A DNA stretch of 16,390 bases from the NCBI GenBank assembly GCA_016932965.1, contig JAFGBW010000169.1, positions 1 through 16,390 on the forward strand, read 5' to 3'. The position numbers and the translations under genes were made by a program. Below, one piece after another: positions 1,721-15,055 of this stretch. This DNA is from Candidatus Auribacterota bacterium. GTDB lineage: Bacteria > Auribacterota > JAFGBW01. Within the stretch, counting starts at the first letter, position 1. Every line of letters begins with the position of its first letter. A model generated the notes under the pieces. The model ran no database searches, was not told the origin of the DNA, and saw only the letters and a list, made by a program, of their open reading frames with translations.

Positions 1721-4700
1721 TTGGAAATCCTGTTGAAAAATATTGCATACAGAATATTTCTCTTTCTGCTCAGCATCCAGATGATCCTGTTTCAGCCGCG
1801 CATCTGCGCGCAGGCCTCTGTATTTAAGACGCAAAATCTGGCTCCTAAAACCGAAATCAGCCTTGATGATCCTGACATATTGTTGAATCTCCTCAGAGAG
1901 ATATTCACCAATCAAGACTTCCAGCCTCCTGAAGGGTTCACTTATCAGAGAACCCGTTCAAGAACCGCCATTGATGTGTTTTCGTTTAATTTTAAAGGTA
2001 AGACAGGGTTTGCTTATCATGGAGACAGGGATGACCTGATAAAAATCTCAAAAAGATATTCACCTGAAAACGTCCTCATGCATGCCAATCAGACGATGAT
2101 GGCGGTGTTCACTTCGACTGCTGAAAATGAACAGGTAAAAGAGGTTCTTGCTTCCAGTGATCTCGGTTATGTCATCGCACAGGCAAAACAGTTTTATAAA
2201 AATGAGAATCTGGAAAATGCGGAAAAATGTTTCCTGCGGGCGCTGGAAATTGATCCTCGTAATACTGAAGCCATGAACGGAATGGGCAATGTTTTGGTTG
2301 ACCAGGACATATGCAGTGAAGCTGAAGAGTGGTTTGACAGGGTGCTGGAGGTGGATCATTACAATTCAGAAGCCTATAAGGGAAAAGCCGCAGTGGAGCT
2401 GGTGAGGGGATATTATAACTCATTCTGGTCCCATTGCTGTTCTGTATTTTTCATCGATGCTGATAACAAGGCTGTCACAGAGATATTGCTCAGACGCCAG
2501 AAAATCGACACGAGGGATGAGTTCTTAAAAAAAATTGAGTTGCTGGGCAAACACATATACTCCCACTGCAGTTATAATTACAAGGATTTATATCCCGTCA
2601 TAGATGCTTTTGCGGACTTGCTTAAACATCCTGAAACTCCGGAAGAGGTGTGTGTCAGGCTCGAAGAGTATCTGCGGGAAAAAGCCATTGAGTTTGTAAA
2701 AATCAGGTTCGGATGGTGGAGTACAAATACATACGGAAAATTTGCGAATCATATGGCTTCTGCTTTTGAAGAAGTGCTCAGACATGCCAGGGAGAGGCGG
2801 ATCTCAAAAGGCCTATGCCTGAGACTGGTGGAAGATTTGCAGGAAATGCATGCGGCCAAGTCTGTAGAAATCAGCCTGGATATTTCAGCAGGGCTCATAA
2901 AAATTCCAAAAGAACATCATGACAGGCTGGCTGAACTGATCCTGGCAGGGCATTATGACATTGTTCATACCGGACTGATCACATTGATTGAAGATGAAGA
3001 ATCCTTCCTGCGGCTCAGCACCGCCTTAAGCAGGTGGAGCGGCAGGGAACGAAAACTGCAGACCTTATGGGAACTGCTTGACACGGAAAAAAACATCAAA
3101 TGGGCACTGACAGCGATAACTGACAGCAATTTTTCGTATGAAGATGCGAAACTAATTGCCTTAAGAATACTTGAAAGCGGTGTGACAACCTATATTAACA
3201 CGCTGAAAAATCTGCTGGCAAAAGAGATAGCAGAAGATCCAAAATACGAAGTATTTCGCAAATTTTTTACCAATAATGCCAGGGACCTGGAAGTAAGAAT
3301 GAGGGCTGCTGAAGACTACATTGAAATGATGATCTTTCATGAAATGACAGAAGAAAACAAAGAAGCCTATGAAGGCATAGCGGCAGCATTTGAAAGCGCG
3401 CTTAAAGAAATGGACGCTTACGCCGAGGAAATGATGGAGGGTGAACCAACAATATCCCAGGAGCGAACGGCTGAAGAAAAGATGCGCAAATCTTTAAACA
3501 GGGTGCGCGGGGAATTCTTAAGGAAGCTTCTGGAAGTGGATGAGCTGGAAGATTTTGAACTGGAATTACTGGGTGACCCGCAGATATTAAAACAGATGAT
3601 GACCCTGTTGAGTGTATTGCTGACACTGGAATTGTCCTATGATTTTCAGGAAGGGGATCTGGCCCGGGAAATCATGAAAAGAGCCCTGACCGTATTTTTT
3701 GAAGGTTATGAAAACAGGGACCTCTCACAGGCAAAACAGGCTTTGAATGAATTCGTCATTAATCTCGGCAACGAAGAACTGAATGAAATACTTGAAGACC
3801 TGGGACTGGAACCCCTGGATCAGACACACAAATGCAATAAAGAAATAATCGAGGAACTGACCCAAGCCGGTTATAAAAAAGCGCTTTTTACTGACGGGAT
3901 AACCAAAACCGTTCATTTGCCCACAAGCATAAGCGCTGAAGATAAAAAGGATTCGATAAGGAAATCAGCCGAAGAGATAGTAGAGCTGGCGATCACACTC
4001 GGTATAACGACGCTCGGCAAAAGGACTTTGACACCTGCAATAGCAACTGAACTGGGCAGCTCAGAAAAAATCCTCCAGTTCTGGAGGCAGATTGAAACAG
4101 CCTACGTTAAAGACAAAAAGACCAGGAGTCTTTTTGAGGTCCATGAAAAACTGGTTGCAAAAAGGATGGAATACGTCCGGAAGATCGAAGCCCTGCCTGT
4201 GGGCGCCTCACAGGCGCAGGATTTCAGGATAACAATCAAGAAGGATCTGATTGAAGAGGCCTGCGTGGGAATGGGTGATTTCAATTTGTGCTACAGTCCT
4301 GACGGGGTTCACCGGGCAACACCCATCGTGCACGGTCTTGAGGCCAATTCATTTGTACTGCAGGTATTCAACCAGAAGGGCCAGCAGGTTGCGAATGCGG
4401 TTTTGATATTGGGAACAAAAGGGGTATATGTCTATACAGGGTATTCTGCCGACGGAATGGATGCTGATCATTTATTTGCCGAAGGACTGGCTGAACTGGC
4501 GAAATATGTACCTGGAATTTTCCTGTCAAAGAATTCGGCAGGCTATAAAACTTTTTCGCCCTATGGTGTCACCCGCGAAGGCAGGATGGAAATCATAAAA
4601 AAAGCAGCCATCTTTGATTATCAGTATGTGGATGATTTTCTTGAAACAAGAGGGGACATCATCATGCCTCTTGAAAATCCGCTTGAAATTACAGAAGAAG

Positions 4701-5479
4701 TGCTAAAGGCAAAAGGCTTTTATGACACTCTCTTTCAAACAGAGTCAGAACCAGCCAAAGCGCCTGACACTTACAGGGATGTGGACTGGACAGGATTGTT
4801 TCAAATGCTCAAATCCGGGTATTCGAATGCCTATCTGTTTTTGATTGGGGCTCTCAAAGCAAGAGCCGTGAAGGAAGGATTCAGTGACGATGAAGAATTT
4901 TTACGGGGCTGGCTGGAAGAGGTATTGACTGAACGGAGCAGGAAGATCAAGGAAATCGACCCTGCTGAAGCTCAAAAACTGGCGGCAATGATACATGATT
5001 TTTTGAAAAAACCGACTATTAAAGAAAAAAAAGCCCCTGCCAGAAAGGCGCCTGTCCCCTCATCAAGGCCACTCAGGGTCACATTCAATACAAGGCGGTT
5101 TTTAAATCCTGTTATCGAAGTCAATGACATGAAAAGGCCTCTTCTCTTGAGGACAGACGCCCCTGGATTTATTCATGCAGGTGTGGAAGATGAACACGGC
5201 AACTGGACAGCTGAATACGACGTGGAATTAGTCAAAACCGCTTTTGGAAAATACGAGGCCCTGCTGGAAGATCCCAGGATCAACAGATTGACCTTTTTCT
5301 GGTATGATGATGAAGGAGGACACTGGCAGGGCGAGGAAGAGTTTGAAAAAGTAAAAATGTTTGAAGTGAGGCGCAGAAACAATCCGCGTGATTTAAGAAG
5401 ACCTGACCAGGAATTACTGAGTGTGCCGGAGGAACCTCCGGGATTAGCTGTCACTCAGGCGGAACTGGTCAGCGCCTGA
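1721..5479 (+). CDS. Giant secreted TPR protein (1252 residues), TTG start
   Basis: A stop at 1712-1714 closes the frame upstream, and the first usable start is TTG at 1721, with AGGA 10 bases before it (a second TTG lies at 1733). The first ATG codon falls inside the hydrophobic segment, so a non-ATG start is needed to keep the signal peptide (about 1-31). A Leu-Ala-Pro motif follows at 40-42. Two or more TPR units occupy about 146-230, with the typical A-x-x-x-F-x-x-A-L-x-x-D-P spacing. A long acidic helical region follows to about 840, then a mixed domain at about 850-1030. A basic Pro/Lys/Ala linker lies near 1097-1118, and a probable beta-rich C-terminal domain at about 1119-1235 includes LTFFWYDDEGGHW, somewhat like a carbohydrate-binding fold (weak impression). 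The function is unknown. I infer an envelope or exported scaffold or adhesion role. Confidence 0.85.
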   Translation: MEILLKNIAYRIFLFLLSIQMILFQPRICAQASVFKTQNLAPKTEISLDDPDILLNLLREIFTNQDFQPPEGFTYQRTRSRTAIDVFSFNFKGKTGFAYHGDRDDLIKISKRYSPENVLMHANQTMMAVFTSTAENEQVKEVLASSDLGYVIAQAKQFYKNENLENAEKCFLRALEIDPRNTEAMNGMGNVLVDQDICSEAEEWFDRVLEVDHYNSEAYKGKAAVELVRGYYNSFWSHCCSVFFIDADNKAVTEILLRRQKIDTRDEFLKKIELLGKHIYSHCSYNYKDLYPVIDAFADLLKHPETPEEVCVRLEEYLREKAIEFVKIRFGWWSTNTYGKFANHMASAFEEVLRHARERRISKGLCLRLVEDLQEMHAAKSVEISLDISAGLIKIPKEHHDRLAELILAGHYDIVHTGLITLIEDEESFLRLSTALSRWSGRERKLQTLWELLDTEKNIKWALTAITDSNFSYEDAKLIALRILESGVTTYINTLKNLLAKEIAEDPKYEVFRKFFTNNARDLEVRMRAAEDYIEMMIFHEMTEENKEAYEGIAAAFESALKEMDAYAEEMMEGEPTISQERTAEEKMRKSLNRVRGEFLRKLLEVDELEDFELELLGDPQILKQMMTLLSVLLTLELSYDFQEGDLAREIMKRALTVFFEGYENRDLSQAKQALNEFVINLGNEELNEILEDLGLEPLDQTHKCNKEIIEELTQAGYKKALFTDGITKTVHLPTSISAEDKKDSIRKSAEEIVELAITLGITTLGKRTLTPAIATELGSSEKILQFWRQIETAYVKDKKTRSLFEVHEKLVAKRMEYVRKIEALPVGASQAQDFRITIKKDLIEEACVGMGDFNLCYSPDGVHRATPIVHGLEANSFVLQVFNQKGQQVANAVLILGTKGVYVYTGYSADGMDADHLFAEGLAELAKYVPGIFLSKNSAGYKTFSPYGVTREGRMEIIKKAAIFDYQYVDDFLETRGDIIMPLENPLEITEEVLKAKGFYDTLFQTESEPAKAPDTYRDVDWTGLFQMLKSGYSNAYLFLIGALKARAVKEGFSDDEEFLRGWLEEVLTERSRKIKEIDPAEAQKLAAMIHDFLKKPTIKEKKAPARKAPVPSSRPLRVTFNTRRFLNPVIEVNDMKRPLLLRTDAPGFIHAGVEDEHGNWTAEYDVELVKTAFGKYEALLEDPRINRLTFFWYDDEGGHWQGEEEFEKVKMFEVRRRNNPRDLRRPDQELLSVPEEPPGLAVTQAELVSA

Positions 5480-7115: not shown

Positions 7116-7922
7116 CTATCTCTTCACCTTGTTTTCACGATATTGGACATAGATATCCCGAAAGGACCGATAGGGATCCAGCGAAGACTTCTTCAAACCC
7201 TCATAATCACCCAGTTTCAGGGAAGTTTGGTTGAGTGTTTTGTAAGCGGTGATAGAAACGCTTGGTTCCAACGGAAGATAATAGACCGGGTTTAAAAACC
7301 CGTCTCCGACCATGCCGATACCGTCACGGAGAGAAGACGGCCCGAAAAAGGGCAGGACCAGATAAAAACCATGCCCCAGGCCGTATACTCCCAAAGTCTG
7401 GCCGGTATCTTCATCCTGCATGCTCAGCTTCCATACTTTTTTTGCCGGATCAAAAAATCCCAGGACGCCGAACGCGGTGTTGAGACAAAACCTGGCCGCT
7501 TCCGTGCCTCCGGATCTTAATTTCCCCTGCAAAAGACAGTTAAAAAACCGCACCGGGGTCAGCAGGTTTTCGAAAAAATTTCTGATTGAAATACGGCCCA
7601 TTTCCGGCAAGAGCCTGTTATAAACGCGGGAGGTTGGCCTCAACACCCAGAAATACAGCCTGTCATTGATCTGAAACATGGCTTTATTCCACCAGATAAA
7701 AGGATCCGGGATTCGCGGAAAATCATCCTCCTCGTCCTCTTCGAATTCATCGTCTTCTTCGGCTGTGCTCACAGGAGCTCCGGAAACATTTTGTTGAGAA
7801 GACTGGGCATAAGAAAAATCCGCCCGGGCTGCAAAAAAAATAAATGACCATGCTAAAAATATAAAAACCGCGGAAAAACTCTTGATCCTAATAATACCGG
7901 AATCAGGTCTCAAGTTTTTCAT
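7116..7922 (-). CDS. mlaA: MlaA (VacJ) outer-membrane lipid asymmetry protein
   Basis: This is a 268-residue MlaA/VacJ-family protein. MlaA sits in the outer membrane, extracts mislocalised phospholipids from the outer leaflet and hands them to MlaC. Residues 1-40 are a signal peptide ending SYAQ. There is no lipobox cysteine, unlike the E. coli lipoprotein. A very acidic stretch (about 55-68) precedes the domain, which spans about 70-260 with family features such as DPF-x-x-x-NKAMFQINDRLY, RNFFENLLTP, the FFDPA region and the Gly-rich LGVYGLGHGFYLVLPFFGPSSLRDG. The ATG start at 7922 overlaps the end of mlaC by 20 bp, implying translational coupling. An AATTGAGAATT repeat follows the stop directly. 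Confidence 0.93.
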   Translation of the reverse strand: MKNLRPDSGIIRIKSFSAVFIFLAWSFIFFAARADFSYAQSSQQNVSGAPVSTAEEDDEFEEDEEDDFPRIPDPFIWWNKAMFQINDRLYFWVLRPTSRVYNRLLPEMGRISIRNFFENLLTPVRFFNCLLQGKLRSGGTEAARFCLNTAFGVLGFFDPAKKVWKLSMQDEDTGQTLGVYGLGHGFYLVLPFFGPSSLRDGIGMVGDGFLNPVYYLPLEPSVSITAYKTLNQTSLKLGDYEGLKKSSLDPYRSFRDIYVQYRENKVKR

Positions 7923-8505
7923 TTTTTTCTTTCAATTTATTCATCAGGTCATCAAAAGATCCCTTTTCCATGATCTCTCTGAACTGGTTCCGGTAATTTT
8001 TTAAAAGTCCCACTCCCTCAATCGTGACATCATAGATCTTCCATTCCTCACCAACCAGATGCATATTGTAATCAATAGGAATATCCCCCTTCTCAGAGAC
8101 AAGAACCGTCTGGACCACCGCTTTACCCTCATCCAGGCTGATTTCTTTGGAATAGGTGACTTTTTCATTGGTATAGGCTTCAATTCTTGAGATGTAGGTT
8201 CTTTTCAACAGCTCCTTGAAGACGTTCGTAAACTCCTTCTGCTTGTCTTCCTGAAGATTCTTCCACTCTTTTGCGAGTGTTTTTCTGCTCATTTCCTCGT
8301 AATTAAAACGCGACTCCAGAAGATCCCCCAGTTTATTGTCCCGCTCTGTCTTTTTATCTTCCCCTTTTAATACAGGGTTTTCCAATAGGTCCATGATTTC
8401 GGTGACTGTTTTTTCCAATTGCTGCATGGCCTCTCCTGCTTTCAGAAAAAGCGGGAAAAAAACAACGGCCAGCATGAACAAGACGTTTCTCATTAGCGTT
8501 TTCAT
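7903..8505 (-). CDS. mlaC: MlaC periplasmic phospholipid-binding protein
   Basis: This is a 200-residue protein of the MlaC (Ttg2D/Tol_Tol_Ttg2) family, close to the usual length of about 210. MlaC shuttles phospholipid across the periplasm between MlaA and the MlaFEDB complex. Residues 1-23 form a signal peptide. The mature domain (about 28-190) shows the family layout: helical N-terminus, the RFNYEEMSRKTL segment, FKELLKRTYISRIEAY, and C-terminal strands ending in EEWKIYDVTIEGVGLLKNYRNQF. The ATG at 8505 has AAGGAG 5 bases upstream. The gene lies 140 bp after mlaD and overlaps mlaA by 20 bp. Confidence 0.93.
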   Translation of the reverse strand: MKTLMRNVLFMLAVVFFPLFLKAGEAMQQLEKTVTEIMDLLENPVLKGEDKKTERDNKLGDLLESRFNYEEMSRKTLAKEWKNLQEDKQKEFTNVFKELLKRTYISRIEAYTNEKVTYSKEISLDEGKAVVQTVLVSEKGDIPIDYNMHLVGEEWKIYDVTIEGVGLLKNYRNQFREIMEKGSFDDLMNKLKEKNEKLET

Positions 8506-9158: not shown

Positions 9159-10367
9159 TCAACTCAGGTGAAACCGTCCTATCACCTTCATGGTTTTCTC
9201 GGTCTCATCAACAACGTGATCGATATGAGTCATGTCTCCGGACTCAGCCACTCCTGCGCTGATGGTATAACTCATGGCCTGAAATCCTTCCGGAGGCAGC
9301 GGAGGATAATTCTTCAACGCTTCACCCAGTTTTCTTAACAGCAAATCGGCCATCATTTTCTTGATATTGGGTAAAATCGTCAGAATCTGATTGTCGCTGT
9401 AACGCGAATGCTCGCAGGAAACACGGAGAAAACTCTCAATGAATGCCGCAAGGTGTTTGAGGACTTTCTGTCCGGTAATGAAACCCAAAGTCTCATTGAT
9501 TTTATCCAGCCCGTCAATTCTGAATAAGATAACGGAGAAAAAGCTCTCAGCGGGGATGGCTCTGTTGATGGTGAATTTCTGGGTGATCTGGCTTTTGGTA
9601 TGGAGTCCTGTCAATTCGTCTTTTAGGTTTTCAACTCCCTTGATGAATTCCTTCACGACGGAATTGTCCACAAAGGGGATCTCCTCGGGCAGGCAGTCGG
9701 CGATGATCTCTCCCTTGTCCAGCATGGCAACCCTCTGGGAAACATAAAACACATCCGGAATGTCATGGCTCACGATCACCGCGGTGAAACCGAATTTGCG
9801 CTGCATATGGGATATCATGCTGTGGACGGCATTTCTCCGTATGGGATCCAATCCGGTTGTCGGTTCGTCAATCAAGATGATTTCAGGGTCCACGACAAGC
9901 GCTCTGGCCAGGCCGACGCGTTTTTTCATGCCGCCGGAAATTTCGGACGGATATTTTTCTACGATATCCGTGATTTCCAGTTTTTCCAGCTTATCCATGA
10001 CTCTTCTCCTGATCTCTTTCTCATTGAGTCTGGTGGTTTCCCGCAGCGGAAGCGCCACATTATCATAGATATTGATGGAATCAAACAAAGCGCCGTTTTG
10101 AAACATATAACTGAATTTGGACCTGGCGCGCTGCCTTTCCTCAGGGCGCAGCTTGGCCATATTTTTCCCCTCGAAAAAAATGTCGCCGGAAGTGGGTTCC
10201 AAAAGTCCGATCATATGTTTCAGAAGAACGGTTTTCCCCGTTCCGCTTTTACCGATGATGGCGGTCACTTTTCCCCGGAAAATTTTCAGGTTGATCCGGT
10301 TGAGGATCACCTGCGATCCAAAGGATTTCGTCACGTTATTGAATTCAATCACGACATCCGTATCCAT
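9159..10367 (-). CDS. mlaF: MlaF ATPase fused to a degenerate GGDEF domain
   Basis: This 402-residue protein is about 130 longer than E. coli MlaF (269). Residues 1-245 are a full ABC ATPase of the Mla type: Walker A GKSGTGKT (39-46), signature SGGMKKR (144-150), Walker B ILIDEP (164-169) and H-loop His201. It should power phospholipid transport through MlaE and MlaD. Residues about 248-398 match a GGDEF domain in layout: DELTGLHTK at 250-258, RIDGLDKINETLG near 283-295, then GQKVL, and SAGVAE near 370-375. The GGDEF pentad is replaced by SDNQI (324-328). The first metal-binding Asp is Arg, and the RxxD inhibitory site reads RVSC (315-318). Diguanylate cyclase activity is therefore not expected; a regulatory or nucleotide-sensing role is inferred. 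The ATG at 10367 is 4 bases after the mlaE stop and lacks a clear SD, so coupling is likely. Confidence 0.92.
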   Translation of the reverse strand: MDTDVVIEFNNVTKSFGSQVILNRINLKIFRGKVTAIIGKSGTGKTVLLKHMIGLLEPTSGDIFFEGKNMAKLRPEERQRARSKFSYMFQNGALFDSINIYDNVALPLRETTRLNEKEIRRRVMDKLEKLEITDIVEKYPSEISGGMKKRVGLARALVVDPEIILIDEPTTGLDPIRRNAVHSMISHMQRKFGFTAVIVSHDIPDVFYVSQRVAMLDKGEIIADCLPEEIPFVDNSVVKEFIKGVENLKDELTGLHTKSQITQKFTINRAIPAESFFSVILFRIDGLDKINETLGFITGQKVLKHLAAFIESFLRVSCEHSRYSDNQILTILPNIKKMMADLLLRKLGEALKNYPPLPPEGFQAMSYTISAGVAESGDMTHIDHVVDETEKTMKVIGRFHLS

Positions 10368-10371
10368 GGCA

Positions 10372-11169
10372 TCACATCAAAAAGGCGGTTAAAATATAGT
10401 CTGATATTAAAATAGTGACACTGGAAATCACGACGGAACTCGTTGTGGCAGTACTGACCGCTTCAGACCCTTTGCCTCCGGTGCGCAGCGAATCGCAGAA
10501 AAAACCGCGATAAGAACTGATGGCGGCCAGGACATAACCGAAAAAGACGGGTTTAATGAGGCCGTTGACAACGTCGCTCATGTCGGTTGAGGAAATCATG
10601 TTGTTGATGAAAACGCCGGAATTCAAATCCAGCATGACTACGCCTGTGATATAGCCGCCAAATATTCCGACCATATCTCCGATGGCGGTCAACAGGGGAA
10701 CAGCCAGGACAGCGGCGATGATTTTCGGGCTGACCAGATACTTGATCGGATTGATGTTCATGGTATAGAGCGCGTCAATCTGTTCTGAGATGCGCATGCT
10801 TCCCAGTTCGGATGAAATGAAGGACCCTGCTCTTCCAGTGACCATGAGGGCGGTCAATACCGGCCCCAGTTCCCGGATGAGCGTCAATGCGACGGCTCCT
10901 CCCAGGAGTCCTTCTGAACCAAAACGGCTGAGCGTATAATATCCCTGGAGTCCGAGGACCATCCCGGTAAAAAAAGCGGTGAGACAGACAACAAAGACGG
11001 ACTTGACCCCGATATGAAACATTTCCTCCACAATACGCTTCCATTTAAAGGGCGCATGAAAGCAAAGCATGGTGGCGTCCATAACAAAAAGGGACAATTT
11101 CCCCAGGGCTCTTAAAGAAGACAGGGTCTGGGCTCCATGAGATCTGATTTGTTCCAGAATAAGCTCCAT
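10372..11169 (-). CDS. mlaE: MlaE permease of the lipid transporter
   Basis: This is a 265-residue MlaE/YrbE-family inner-membrane permease, the membrane subunit that pairs with MlaF. I chose ATG 11169, which has AGGA 8 bases upstream and falls 4 bases after the preceding stop. A longer frame from 11253 would overlap the upstream gene by 80 bp and add 28 non-family residues. Features are an amphipathic N-terminus, several TM segments from about 53 onward, and the family-defining RELGPVLTALMVTGRAGS segment (99-116) followed by SELGSMRISEQIDAL. The C-terminal half has the usual KPVFFGYVLA and GFFCDSLRTGGKGSEAVS motifs. It is tightly linked to mlaF. Confidence 0.94.
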   Translation of the reverse strand: MELILEQIRSHGAQTLSSLRALGKLSLFVMDATMLCFHAPFKWKRIVEEMFHIGVKSVFVVCLTAFFTGMVLGLQGYYTLSRFGSEGLLGGAVALTLIRELGPVLTALMVTGRAGSFISSELGSMRISEQIDALYTMNINPIKYLVSPKIIAAVLAVPLLTAIGDMVGIFGGYITGVVMLDLNSGVFINNMISSTDMSDVVNGLIKPVFFGYVLAAISSYRGFFCDSLRTGGKGSEAVSTATTSSVVISSVTILISDYILTAFLM

Positions 11170-11173
11170 GTTT

Positions 11174-11512
11174 TCAGTCCTGATTTCCTGGTTTAAGATC
11201 CTGCAGCGGCAAAGTGGGAACTTGATGCTGGAGAGGGAGAGTCTCCGCGTCATGGGCCGAGGGATAAGGTTTCCACCATCTGGTCTTGTACTTCAGTCCG
11301 TGTCTGAATTTGGACCGGTAAAAGGAAATCACGTTCGCAATCAGATTCACCAGATTGATGAGAAAGCACAACACGGCTATTGTCAGAATCAGAAGAGATC
11401 CCTGCGAAAAAGGGGGCTGTTCATAGGCAAGAAAAACTAGCGATACTGCTAACACAATTCCGCAATTGAAGAACAACACACTGTATTTGAATATGAAAAA
11501 GACAAGATTCAC
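11174..11512 (-). CDS. Small two-TM membrane protein of unknown function
   Basis: This is a 112-residue protein with two hydrophobic segments (about 3-29 and 38-65), followed by a basic, Trp/Pro/His-containing cytoplasmic or periplasmic tail. The start is GTG at 11512, overlapping the previous stop as GTGA (4 bases), which points to coupled translation. No in-frame ATG exists before or within the TM segments. It ends 4 bases before the mlaE start, so it belongs to the same transcription unit. I do not recognise a family. It could be an accessory subunit of the transporter or of the PilP-like protein. Confidence 0.75.
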   Translation of the reverse strand: MNLVFFIFKYSVLFFNCGIVLAVSLVFLAYEQPPFSQGSLLILTIAVLCFLINLVNLIANVISFYRSKFRHGLKYKTRWWKPYPSAHDAETLPLQHQVPTLPLQDLKPGNQD

Positions 11513-11895
11513 TGGATGGTCACTTCGACCAATTCTCCATCCACTTCAAAAACCACGTACTCTTTTTCAACGGTCCGGATGACAGCGATTCCCTTCACCC
11601 TGTCTCCAATCCCGTAAATATTATCATCGCCGTCAACAAGGATAGCGGGCCTTTTCATGTCCCACACGATGGTATTCAATTTGATCCCTGCTTTCTCGAG
11701 TTTTTGCCGGCCGGTCAATTCATCCAGGGACGGTTCCGGGACTTTAGGACCGGTATCTTCCGAGACGGCAAAGAAAGGGTCCCTTTTGCCTTTGCTGTCG
11801 TAAACAAAATTTTCCTTTTTGGAAACAGTTGATTCGCCGCACAAAAGGGGAAACAACATCACGCTAAATAAAAAACATAGAACATATTTATTCAT
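11509..11895 (-). CDS. PilP/GspC-like small periplasmic protein
   Basis: This 128-residue protein has a signal peptide (about 1-20), though the cysteine in PLLCG does not fit a good lipobox. A KRDPFF motif at about 37-42 is typical of PilP-type proteins. The C-terminal beta domain (about 70-128) reads like the PilP/GspC homology region: a G-x-x-L-x-x-I-V-W start, AILVDGDDNIYGIGDRV, then alternating strands ending VDGELVEVTIQ. PilP and GspC normally link inner-membrane pilus or secretion parts to the secretin, but no such partners are in the window. Its place here, just before the Mla genes, suggests a different envelope role. The ATG at 11895 has GAGGA 9 bases upstream. It lies 91 bp after the kinase gene. 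Confidence 0.7.
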   Translation of the reverse strand: MNKYVLCFLFSVMLFPLLCGESTVSKKENFVYDSKGKRDPFFAVSEDTGPKVPEPSLDELTGRQKLEKAGIKLNTIVWDMKRPAILVDGDDNIYGIGDRVKGIAVIRTVEKEYVVFEVDGELVEVTIQ

Positions 11896-11986: not shown

Positions 11987-13471
11987 TTATAGGCAGGTTA
12001 GAGGCAGGCGGATCTGCACCTCCGTTCCTCCAGATGCGCGGCTTTGGATGACAAGCGTACCCCAGTGATTTTGAATGATCTCCCTGGAAATGAACAGCCC
12101 CAAACCTGTCCCCGGAACCTGGCTTTTCCCATAATCCCCCTTGGTTGTAAAAAAGGGTTCAAAGATTCTTTCCATATCCGAGTCAAGAATACCTGTTCCT
12201 GTGTCTTTGAATAAAAGCAGGGCATAGCCGTTTTCCTTGCTTACTGAAACATCAAGAAAGCCGCTGTTTCTCATGGCGTCCCTGGCATTGGTCAGAATAT
12301 TCAAAAAAACCTGCTGAATCTGCTGTGCATCCATGTTGCAGAACAAATCTGTATTTCCTGAAACCGAAATCCGTATCCCGAAATGCATCAATTCCTGGCG
12401 GATCAGACTCACACTTTTCATGAGCACATCATGAATATTTGCCGATGCAAAGGCCGGAGGGGACGGCCTGGCATAATTCAGCAGATTTTTTGTGATAGCC
12501 ATGCCGGATTGGACGGCATCCATGATATTTTGCATAGATTCCCTGGAGTATCGGCCGTCGTTCATCTCAAGCGAGGCTTCCACATCCATTGAGATGGCTG
12601 AAAGGATGTTATTGAATTCATGAGCCAAACCGCCCGCGAGTTTCCCGATGGAGGCGATCTTTTCCACAGCCAGAACCTGCTCCTTCAGGACATTTTTTTC
12701 CCTGATGTGCAGGATCATCTGATGAAAAGAGTCGGAGAGAAGGCCGATTTCATTGGCGGTTTTTGGGGGAAGTTCCACATCCAGATTTCCGGAGGAAATT
12801 TTCCTCGTGGCTTTAACCAGCATCAAAACAGGCTGGACAATGCCGTTTGAGAAATACGTTCCCAGGATGGAAAAAATCAGGAAAAGAACCACGCTGAGAA
12901 TGAGCGCGTCTTTTTTCGACCTTGCCAGTTCCTTTTCCATTCCATCCAGGGAAAAAAGCACATTGGCATATCCCAGGTCCCGGGATTCTTCCTGCAGCGA
13001 AGGCTCCTCATAAAGAGGGGTATAAACAGCCGTTTTATTCTGGATCTGAATTTTACTTTTAAAATAGAGGAATTTTCTGTTTTCATATAAAAACAATCCT
13101 CCTTTTTCTGAAGGATGTCTTCCCTCCTGACAAAGCCCGACTATCGGGGCCATATCAGTCTCTTCCTGAAATCTTCCGCTGGAGGCAAGGATATCTCCTT
13201 TATTATTTTCAATGAAAACCAGAAATACATCCTGATCCGTCATGATCCCTTTCAGGTAGTTTTGCAGGTCATTTCTGTCATCAGCCCAGACTCCGTACTG
13301 GCTGTCCACCGCAAGGTTTCTGCACAGGGTAACGCCGTTTTTTTCAAGTGCGGAAAGAAAAATAATTTTTTGCTTATGGATATAAAGGACCGTGGTGAGA
13401 AGCACGGACAGGCTTGTGATGGATAGGATAAGGAGATTGATCTTAAGGCTGAGGGTCTTACGATACTGCAT
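11987..13471 (-). CDS. Membrane sensor histidine kinase (HAMP-HisKA-HATPase)
   Basis: This is a 494-residue histidine kinase. TM1 is about 9-31, a periplasmic sensor region spans about 32-185, TM2 about 187-208, and HAMP about 209-262. The dimerisation/phosphoacceptor domain contains GGLAHEFNNILSAI with the phosphoacceptor His284; the HEFNN form is typical of the NtrB/PAS-type HisKA group. The ATPase domain has the N-box NILTNARDAM (391-400), G1 DTGTGI (423-428) and G2 GTGLGL (454-459), so it should be active. It overlaps the upstream binding-protein gene by 14 bp, making that protein a likely periplasmic ligand presenter. The probable partner regulator is the first gene of the cluster (15055). 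No receiver is fused to it. Confidence 0.93.
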   Translation of the reverse strand: MQYRKTLSLKINLLILSITSLSVLLTTVLYIHKQKIIFLSALEKNGVTLCRNLAVDSQYGVWADDRNDLQNYLKGIMTDQDVFLVFIENNKGDILASSGRFQEETDMAPIVGLCQEGRHPSEKGGLFLYENRKFLYFKSKIQIQNKTAVYTPLYEEPSLQEESRDLGYANVLFSLDGMEKELARSKKDALILSVVLFLIFSILGTYFSNGIVQPVLMLVKATRKISSGNLDVELPPKTANEIGLLSDSFHQMILHIREKNVLKEQVLAVEKIASIGKLAGGLAHEFNNILSAISMDVEASLEMNDGRYSRESMQNIMDAVQSGMAITKNLLNYARPSPPAFASANIHDVLMKSVSLIRQELMHFGIRISVSGNTDLFCNMDAQQIQQVFLNILTNARDAMRNSGFLDVSVSKENGYALLLFKDTGTGILDSDMERIFEPFFTTKGDYGKSQVPGTGLGLFISREIIQNHWGTLVIQSRASGGTEVQIRLPLTCL

Positions 13472-14459
13472 ACTCTGCCTTTATTTTTTTAAAGGAAACG
13501 CTCTTCATCCTTATTCCGTCAGGAATGCTCAATTCAAACGCCTTCACCATGTTTTCATTCAAAATCAGTTCATATTCCCTGCATTGCAATGACGGCTGAG
13601 TTTGCTTTTCCTTCTCGCGGCCTGCGATTCCCAAAGCGCTCATCATCAATGCAGTTGTTTTCTGTACTACCTCATCTGTTTTAAAGGAAAAAGAGGCCAG
13701 CGCGCCGTTTTCGAGAAGCTTATAATATTCAGAAAAGACATAAAAATTCCGGGTCATGCTGAGGAGCATTATTTTTTTCATGGCGGACCGTCTTAAAAGG
13801 ATTGGATCAGGCAGAAAATAAAAGGCCTGAATGTTATAACGGAAGATCAGTGATTCAAGCGCCCCGGGGAGACTGGTCTCATTGTCAATGGGACGAGCGA
13901 TCAGTTCCAGCCCGGAATTAAAAGCGCTTTCTTTTAAACCTGGAACAATCCGGCTGAAAAAACGGCGGGAATAGATCAGGCCTATTTTTTTCAAAGACGG
14001 TGAAATTGTCTTTAAACAGGAAAAAGGGGACTGCATGTCCAGATTGATATAAACCCCTCTCATCAGCGGGGTTTCTTCCATGATCTGATCCATGAGATCA
14101 ATGTGATAAACCATGGTAAAAACGATGGGGATATTTTTGAAATTCTGTGCCATGAATTCCGTCTGCCAGGGGCCGATGGTAACGATCAGGTCAGGAGAAA
14201 CATTTTTAATATCCGCGATGAAATCTTCACTCTTTTCGCCTGCATCCAGAGTATAACTATACTCTTTGAGGGAGATTTTTTCTTTTTTCAAAGATGTTAT
14301 GATTTCCCTGCTGACCGGCAGATAATAAGGATTGCTTTTACCTGCCACCATGCAGATGGAGTATTCTTCGGCATGGGAGAAAAAACACGAAAAGAAAAGA
14401 AGAATACAAGAATTGAGAATTGAAAATTGAGAGTTGAGAATTTTGAATTGTGGATGCAA
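13458..14459 (-). CDS. ABC_sub_bind-family periplasmic binding protein, TTG start
   Basis: This is a 333-residue protein of the ABC_sub_bind (TrpX-like) type: two alternating alpha/beta lobes with segments such as SPDLIVTIGPWQTEFM, IPIVFTMVYH, LKKIGLIYSRRF and a terminal ALGI region. The only reasonable start is TTG at 14459. No ATG precedes the mature domain, and the signal peptide (about 1-30, ending SHA) needs it. The first part of the signal peptide is encoded by the AATTCTCAATT repeat. No ABC permease or ATPase for uptake adjoins it. The 3' end overlaps the histidine kinase by 14 bp, so a ligand-sensing role for the kinase is inferred. The ligand is unknown; family members bind amino acids or other small molecules. 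Confidence 0.85.
   Translation of the reverse strand: MHPQFKILNSQFSILNSCILLFFSCFFSHAEEYSICMVAGKSNPYYLPVSREIITSLKKEKISLKEYSYTLDAGEKSEDFIADIKNVSPDLIVTIGPWQTEFMAQNFKNIPIVFTMVYHIDLMDQIMEETPLMRGVYINLDMQSPFSCLKTISPSLKKIGLIYSRRFFSRIVPGLKESAFNSGLELIARPIDNETSLPGALESLIFRYNIQAFYFLPDPILLRRSAMKKIMLLSMTRNFYVFSEYYKLLENGALASFSFKTDEVVQKTTALMMSALGIAGREKEKQTQPSLQCREYELILNENMVKAFELSIPDGIRMKSVSFKKIKAEYAVS
14409..14450. repeat. AATTGAGAATT repeat overlapping a signal-peptide coding region
   Basis: Four imperfect units of about 9-11 bases (ATTGAGAATT, TTGAAAATT, GAGTTGAGAATT, TTGAATTG) run in tandem. On the minus strand they encode roughly residues 4-17 of the binding protein (QFKILNSQFSILNS), a visible internal peptide repeat, KILNSQF/SILNS. 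Confidence 0.65.
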
Positions 14460-14473
14460 AATAAACAGTTCTT

Positions 14474-15055
14474 TTAAATCATTAACGGAATTTCCAGCAG
14501 TTCTTCCACCTTATGCATCAGATCAGACAATTTGAAGGGTTTGGCGAGATAATCATCGAAACCGGAAGAAAGAAGGGTCTTAATTTCATCATCCTTAACA
14601 AAGCCGGAAATGGCAATGACCTTGGTTGCTTTTTGTTCAGGGTGCTTGCGGATTGTCTTGATGACCTCATAACCGTTGATGTCGCCAAGCATGATATCCA
14701 AAATTACGAGATGAGGTTTAAAGGATTCCATCAGCACGCCGGCCCTGAATCCGGAAGAAGCCGTCTCCACCTCGTAAACAGATTTGGTCTTGAAATAACG
14801 CAATAGGGACCGCATGACCCGTTCATCATCATCCACAAGAAGGATCTTCTTTTTAGAAGAGATAGATGAGGGGATCGGTATATGATTTACGGTCATGAAC
14901 CGGAGCAGTTCATTTCGTTCGATTCGGAAGGTTCTGCCGCCGCCTGCGCGAAAACAAAACAATTTCCCCTCTTTAATGCGGCGATGAATGGTCCAGACAG
15001 TGGTCTGGCAGAACCGGGCTGCTTCTTCTATATTATAGGATGTCTGGAGGATCAT
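14474..15055 (-). CDS. Response regulator with N-terminal excisionase-type HTH and C-terminal receiver
   Basis: This is a 193-residue protein. Residues about 6-56 form a MerR/excisionase-like helix-turn-helix (NIEEAARFCQTTVWTIHRRIKEG, then a wing with RTFRIERNEL). Residues about 69-190 form a receiver with the acidic pocket DDD at 75-77, phosphoacceptor Asp120 in LVILD, Ser150 in place of the usual Thr/Ser, and Lys172 in AKPF. All key residues are present, so phosphorylation is expected. The order is the reverse of common regulators, which carry the receiver first. It is probably the partner of the kinase at 11987-13471 and may regulate this cluster. The ATG at 15055 has only a weak SD (AGGGA, about 10 bases upstream). 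Confidence 0.9.
   Translation of the reverse strand: MILQTSYNIEEAARFCQTTVWTIHRRIKEGKLFCFRAGGGRTFRIERNELLRFMTVNHIPIPSSISSKKKILLVDDDERVMRSLLRYFKTKSVYEVETASSGFRAGVLMESFKPHLVILDIMLGDINGYEVIKTIRKHPEQKATKVIAISGFVKDDEIKTLLSSGFDDYLAKPFKLSDLMHKVEELLEIPLMI

Follow-up and report, generated by a model that had tools for sequence, protein, structure and literature searches.

Among the described systems closest to the locus studied here is E. coli MlaFEDB (PDB 6xgy, 6xbd), in which the ATPase MlaF has MlaB as a partner and ends in a C-terminal 'handshake' extension (CTE) of about 25 aa. According to a previous study, the CTE (residues 247-269) is essential and is needed to hold MlaF on MlaE; when it is missing, MlaF no longer stays in the complex, and function comes back substantially once a GCN4 dimeriser is fused in its place (PMC7367683). 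GGDEF domains, in turn, are known from active diguanylate cyclases, such as PleD, DgcR, and DgcB, where a sensor lies upstream, and the DxLT turn was described as the hinge between the input domain and the GGDEF core in DgcR (PMC8041772) and DgcB (PMC6733907). Non-catalytic GGDEF domains occur as well, in PopA, CdgG, and similar degenerate signalling proteins. No published description of an MlaF-GGDEF or ABC_tran-GGDEF protein, or of Mla together with c-di-GMP, was found in the open-licence literature.

The window, which is the whole stretch of 16,390 nucleotides that was analysed (contig JAFGBW010000169.1 of a Candidatus Auribacterota bacterium), carries a gene in which an MlaF-type ATPase runs into a degenerate GGDEF domain. 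The original prediction had placed this fusion at 9159-10367 without giving a strand; the coordinates are correct, the coding strand is the minus strand, and the plus strand has stops in that frame. The features of the locus are as follows:

9159 to 10367, minus strand: mlaF-GGDEF fusion gene, a single open frame from ATG to stop, 402 aa, with full-length homologues at 44-49% identity
9636 to 10367, minus strand: MlaF ABC ATPase part, residues 1-244 (Pfam ABC_tran; Walker A GKSGTGKT, signature SGGMKKR)
9159 to 9635, minus strand: degenerate GGDEF domain, residues 245-402 and the stop codon (Pfam GGDEF profile match at 249-394)
9606 to 9620, minus strand: DELTG, residues 250-254, entry motif of the domain (the 'wide turn', DxLT), located where E. 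coli MlaF has its CTE
9522 to 9524, minus strand: Arg282 instead of the catalytic metal Asp, which is kept in none of 107 fusions
9411 to 9422, minus strand: RVSC, residues 315-318, instead of the I-site RxxD, from alignment with intact GGDEF domains and the 106 other fusions
9384 to 9398, minus strand: SDNQI, residues 324-328, instead of GG[DE]EF, from alignment with intact GGDEF domains
10372 to 11253, minus strand: mlaE permease (Pfam MlaE, E 3e-75), the sole MlaE of the genome
8646 to 9092, minus strand: mlaD, a short MCE protein (Pfam MlaD, E 2.6e-20)
7903 to 8505, minus strand: mlaC (Pfam MlaC, E 7.5e-46)
7116 to 7922, minus strand: mlaA (Pfam MlaA, E 3e-64), sharing 20 bases with the end of mlaC

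Since mlaE, mlaD, mlaC, and mlaA all lie beside mlaF on the minus strand, in the order mlaE-F-D-C-A as assigned by Pfam, the operon is an Mla-type phospholipid transport operon, and it holds the one MlaE found in the source genome (92.6% complete). The ATPase part matches Pfam ABC_tran at residues 22-171 (E=2e-33) and has the Walker A motif GKSGTGKT, the Walker B motif IILIDEPTTGLD, and an SGGM signature with Met (SGGMKKR). Similar to E. coli MlaF, with which its ATPase is 36% identical in a structural alignment, it combines SGGM with an MlaE partner and an operon with mlaD and mlaC, and E. coli MlaF (6xgy) was the best PDB match of the full-length model (E 1e-27). The MlaF equivalog was its best NCBIfam match, yet with 208 bits against a cut-off of 441 bits, so the protein is filed as MlaF-type and not as an equivalog. 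Unlike E. coli MlaF, it possesses neither the handshake extension nor an MlaB partner; a GGDEF domain of about 155 aa stands at the same point, and no MlaB/STAS gene was found in the operon.

The full-length model had a pTM of 0.56, with weak segments at residues 244-249 and 257-270. MetN, which belongs to the MetNI methionine ABC transporter, likewise carries a regulatory domain of ferredoxin-like type on the C-terminal side of its ATPase, in that case a different, methionine-binding domain. The full-length fold search matched MetN (3tui) as well; however, the alignment over both domains had a large rmsd of about 12-13 Å.

The tail belongs to the GGDEF family by both profile and fold. The Pfam GGDEF profile (PF00990) matches residues 249-394 of the full protein with E=3.3e-15 and the tail alone with 3.7e-16, both matches scoring far above the cut-off (56.7 bits against 23.8). 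A profile built from the tail and seven homologues retrieved solved diguanylate cyclases from the PDB at up to 6e-19, and the solved Amt-GGDEF chain 8qj3 was also among the rows. The tail was also modelled by itself with AlphaFold (mean pLDDT 71, with the first 22 residues poor); it is predicted to adopt the GGDEF fold, and all of the best 50 rows listed are GGDEF structures (Z 10.5-13.1), with diguanylate cyclases up to Z 13.1. Like PleD, DgcR, and DgcB, the fusion tails have the GGDEF fold, the DxLT hinge, and an Arg before the pentad; unlike them, they lack the metal Asp, the guanine-contacting Asp, and GG[DE]EF, and an ATPase instead of a sensor lies upstream. In the window copy, the metal Asp is replaced by Arg, the guanine-contacting Asp by Gln, and the pentad by SDNQI, so that everything by which a diguanylate cyclase is recognized here is missing. 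RVSC stands at the place of RxxD, which marks an I-site receptor when found five residues before the pentad. All of the motifs listed in the original prediction were found (DELTGL, IN..LG, GQKVL, RYSDNQI..ILP, SAGVAE, Arg at the first metal Asp, and RVSC), and the layout which it had described stood, but the alignment is not gapless as it had stated, because the window copy is two residues short near 266 relative to its homologues.

The same architecture is widespread. A tail-only scan of 84,980 genomes found no relative, and the family was found instead by a whole-protein scan of named genomes, which returned seven full-length homologues (44-49% identity) in Desulfobacterales and 'Deltaproteobacteria' MAGs. 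With a profile of the eight fusions, full-length fusions were detected in many genomes of the same order and in further genomes of that phylum. Altogether 107 full-length MlaF-GGDEF fusions from 98 genomes were read, the window included, and nearly all of them are Desulfobacterota-type. A frameshift or assembly artefact as the source of the fusion was rejected, since the uninterrupted architecture recurs in about a hundred other genomes. None of the 107 fusions has a GG[DE]EF pentad or the metal Asp, the latter being Thr in 57 and Ser in 25; the guanine-contacting Asp is kept in one only, GD having become GQ (Gln) in 86. These counts suggest that catalysis was lost a single time, most likely before the family spread, and that the dead site is ancestral.

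Visual inspection of motifs and of the tree divided a first set of 67 fusions into two branches. The window-like branch, which has 43 members in addition to the window, typically shows a G-[LM]-[ND]-K-I pentad, and it keeps the Asp of RxxD in 43/43 and the whole RxxD in 34/43 of these others, so in this branch only the window copy has lost the I-site Asp. The second branch (23 members of the 67) reads GGFS.RQTINE[FY] or similar in the pentad region, has AVGG or similar at the I-site, and lacks RxxD. Eight genomes (G046, G049, G050, G102, G135, G197, G235, and G563) contain mlaF-GGDEF in two or three paralogous copies, which often belong to different branches. Of the 107 fusions, 87, from both branches, have a Cys among their last 25 residues, often as the final one (L024, L026, and L067 end in FKVC or similar, and L089-L108 have RFxC near the end); the window copy ends in Ser. 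At four loci (L025, L027, L028, and L029), an RsbW-like kinase/anti-sigma gene is present between mlaF-GGDEF and mlaE (e.g., L027:5220-5648, plus strand), and the same sub-branch has a STAS gene after mlaA in opposite orientation (L027 8101-8527, minus strand). Together, these two genes might form a partner-switching module next to the lipid transport genes.

Purifying selection maintains the tail: across 34 pairs that share more than 80% identity in the ATPase part, its dN/dS was mostly 0.04-0.3, and higher values (0.47-0.68) were obtained for pairs among L077, L080, and L081, where dS is small. The original prediction of a catalytically dead GGDEF scaffold kept by selection is thus borne out by both the residue counts and these ratios. 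The tail is more variable than the ATPase part, with a mean entropy of 2.40 bits vs. 1.23 bits, and its best-conserved positions are R322 (103/107), G372, T253, A389, G295, and G254. The highest conservation, therefore, falls on the DxLTG/Arg joint and on core glycines and alanines, not on the catalytic pocket. L, T, and G of the entry turn are conserved in 93, 99, and 98 of 107, respectively, and an acidic residue at 250 occurs together with Arg at 322, its putative salt-bridge partner, in 90/107 fusions.

Most plain MlaF proteins of the phylum of the window end in FI.G...GP[IV], where the CTE starts. The fusions run straight into D.LTG at this very point, and the GGDEF domain thus begins at the position of the CTE. 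Because of this start and because GCN4 rescues the loss of the CTE in E. coli, the domain was taken as a natural replacement of the handshake extension, acting as a non-catalytic clamp or regulator of the MlaF dimer, a reading that we consider about evenly balanced between right and wrong. Control of the Mla ATPase dimer, one of the roles offered in the original prediction, was rated the most plausible on the same grounds, i.e., by analogy with the rescued CTE deletion (PMC7367683). The laboratory construct MlaFΔCTE-GCN4 is similar in that MlaF regains much of its function through a dimerizing module fused at this site (PMC7367683), while it differs in being an artificial coiled coil instead of a natural and conserved GGDEF scaffold. 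As about a hundred genomes, most of them from relatives of sulfate-reducing bacteria, keep the dead domain at the same place, it is probably a clamp or a regulatory handle and not an enzyme.

By analogy, the domains would be expected to pair, to contact the ATPase, and to affect transport. Two GGDEF domains, one per MlaF, would sit below the ATPase dimer and would hold or adjust the MlaF-MlaF interface, like the E. coli CTE and the C-terminal domains of MetN and ModC. The conserved DxLTG turn and the conserved Arg before the pentad could transmit movement between the ATPase and the GGDEF core; alternatively, the Arg and LTG may simply stabilize the fold. Five Desulfobacterota members (L030 and L117-L120) carry neither the GGDEF domain nor a recognizable GP-type CTE, and neither of the two is, therefore, always needed. 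At one of these loci (L117:880-1657, plus strand), the gene encodes a plain MlaF, and the roughly 60 bases past it hold, after the stop, an apparent remnant of the GGDEF end (RQNTLYEFRVC), in which LYEFRVC resembles the last residues of the domain. This remnant suggests that the domain loss at L117 is probably secondary.

The strongest alternative is that the dead cyclase serves as a c-di-GMP receptor, which binds the messenger at its I-site and gates lipid transport, in the window-like branch only. Like part of the fusion family, PopA is a dead GGDEF protein with an I-site, at which it binds c-di-GMP (PMC3359988), although PopA and CdgG are signalling proteins and the domain described here is in a transporter ATPase, whose window copy lacks RxxD. 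The retention of RxxD and of its Asp in the window-like branch fits such a role, in which c-di-GMP would cross-link the GGDEF domains and tune transport. In addition, nine strong GGDEF matches (E<=3e-30) occur in the genome of the window, and the three that were read have intact pentads, so this genome probably makes c-di-GMP. However, the window copy has RVSC, the second branch has AVGG or similar, and GGDEF domains in general often have the Asp of RxxD, which may be structural. Judged from these residues, c-di-GMP control is a real but minor possibility in the RxxD-keeping branch and unlikely in the window copy, which, having lost the I-site Asp, would more probably be a structural clamp only. 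Slightly more tentative still is the broader proposal of a widespread Mla class in which the pseudo-GGDEF domain of the RxxD branch senses c-di-GMP and opens or closes the MlaF dimer, the window copy being a derived, ligand-free version.

It was also proposed in the original prediction that the domain replaces MlaB, taking over the job of the STAS subunit in stabilizing MlaF and its docking to MlaE. The absence of an MlaB gene on which this was based holds: the operon lacks mlaB, nothing over cut-off was found for STAS or STAS_2 in the genome of the window, and the fusion loci read, which are short and were searched with few STAS models, showed no same-strand STAS gene among their mla genes. 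However, two genomes of the same order (G016 and G017, loci L008 and L010) have the same operon with a plain MlaF of 253-255 aa, ending in G.LDGPIKEDYF, and likewise without mlaB, and mlaB is not in the operons of the GGDEF-less members L117-L120 and L030 either. As mlaB is also missing beside plain MlaF, its absence does not track the presence of the domain. Moreover, the domain joins MlaF at the CTE. With MlaB only sparsely distributed in diderms (PMC10665443), replacement of MlaB was rejected as the main reading, and we regard it as improbable.

Equally doubtful is the idea of a decaying passenger with little function, which has been drifting since catalysis was lost. The faster evolution of the tail relative to the ATPase part, the apparent domain losses (one of them, L117, with its C-terminal remnant past the stop), and the missing I-site Asp and two residues of the window copy would agree with it, but the low dN/dS over many pairs speaks against drift, as does the fact that nearly all full-length rows listed, from many genera, are free of internal stops. 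Finally, it is highly improbable that the domain is a nucleotide cyclase, active or of an unusual kind, that uses other metal ligands. This reading was rejected on the counts of the metal Asp (0/107) and guanine-contacting Asp (1/107), even though the fold is intact, some cyclases with degenerate pentads, for example one with AGDEF, are active (PMC3974145), and one fusion (L148) has GADEF, itself without the metal Asp.

The preferred clamp or regulator reading concerns a family to which the window copy appears to be a newcomer. In the tree of the ATPase part, the window lies inside the fusion-bearing group, where its exact place is unsure, and a branch with 100/99 support splits off the MlaF of its own phylum. 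When compared with both Desulfobacterota and the same-order genomes G016 and G017, MlaF and MlaD are nearer to the Desulfobacterota proteins, as is MlaE, though less clearly, and MlaC and MlaA do not discriminate. The fusion was not found at E<=1e-60 in any other of 44 genomes of the phylum, and with the plain MlaF of its own order separate on the tree, an origin of the fusion within the phylum was rejected. Since the operon is nested in a Desulfobacterota-type fusion family, horizontal transfer of at least mlaEFD into the lineage of the window probably took place. A mis-binned contig is disfavoured, though not disproved, by composition: the tetranucleotide correlation of the window with its own genome is 0.70 (other contigs 0.66-0.82) and its GC is 0.436 vs. 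0.439, so the contig probably belongs to the source genome.

Several other genes of the window were also recorded. Just upstream of the mla operon, on the minus strand (11987-15055), lie helix-turn-helix/receiver-like, ABC_sub_bind periplasmic (PF04392), and histidine-kinase-like genes, which may form a sensory system. A small secreted-looking protein at 11509-11895 (minus strand) is weakly GspC-like (type II secretion; Pfam E 0.0014, below the cut-off). A TPR-containing protein of 1252 aa is encoded at 1721-5479 (plus strand); a search of the phylum's 42 other genomes covered gave no match at E<=1e-10.

What the original prediction had missed is that the architecture belongs to a widespread family and that the window copy looks acquired by transfer. 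Even for E. coli, the cue to which MlaF and MlaB respond was described as not known (PMC7367683). With a dead signalling domain standing in for the handshake tail in about a hundred genomes, Mla regulation becomes open to direct testing. If the clamp reading is true, a cyclase scaffold has been kept for mechanical coupling after its chemistry was lost. A c-di-GMP-sensing MlaF, if true, would put outer-membrane lipid balance directly under second-messenger control.
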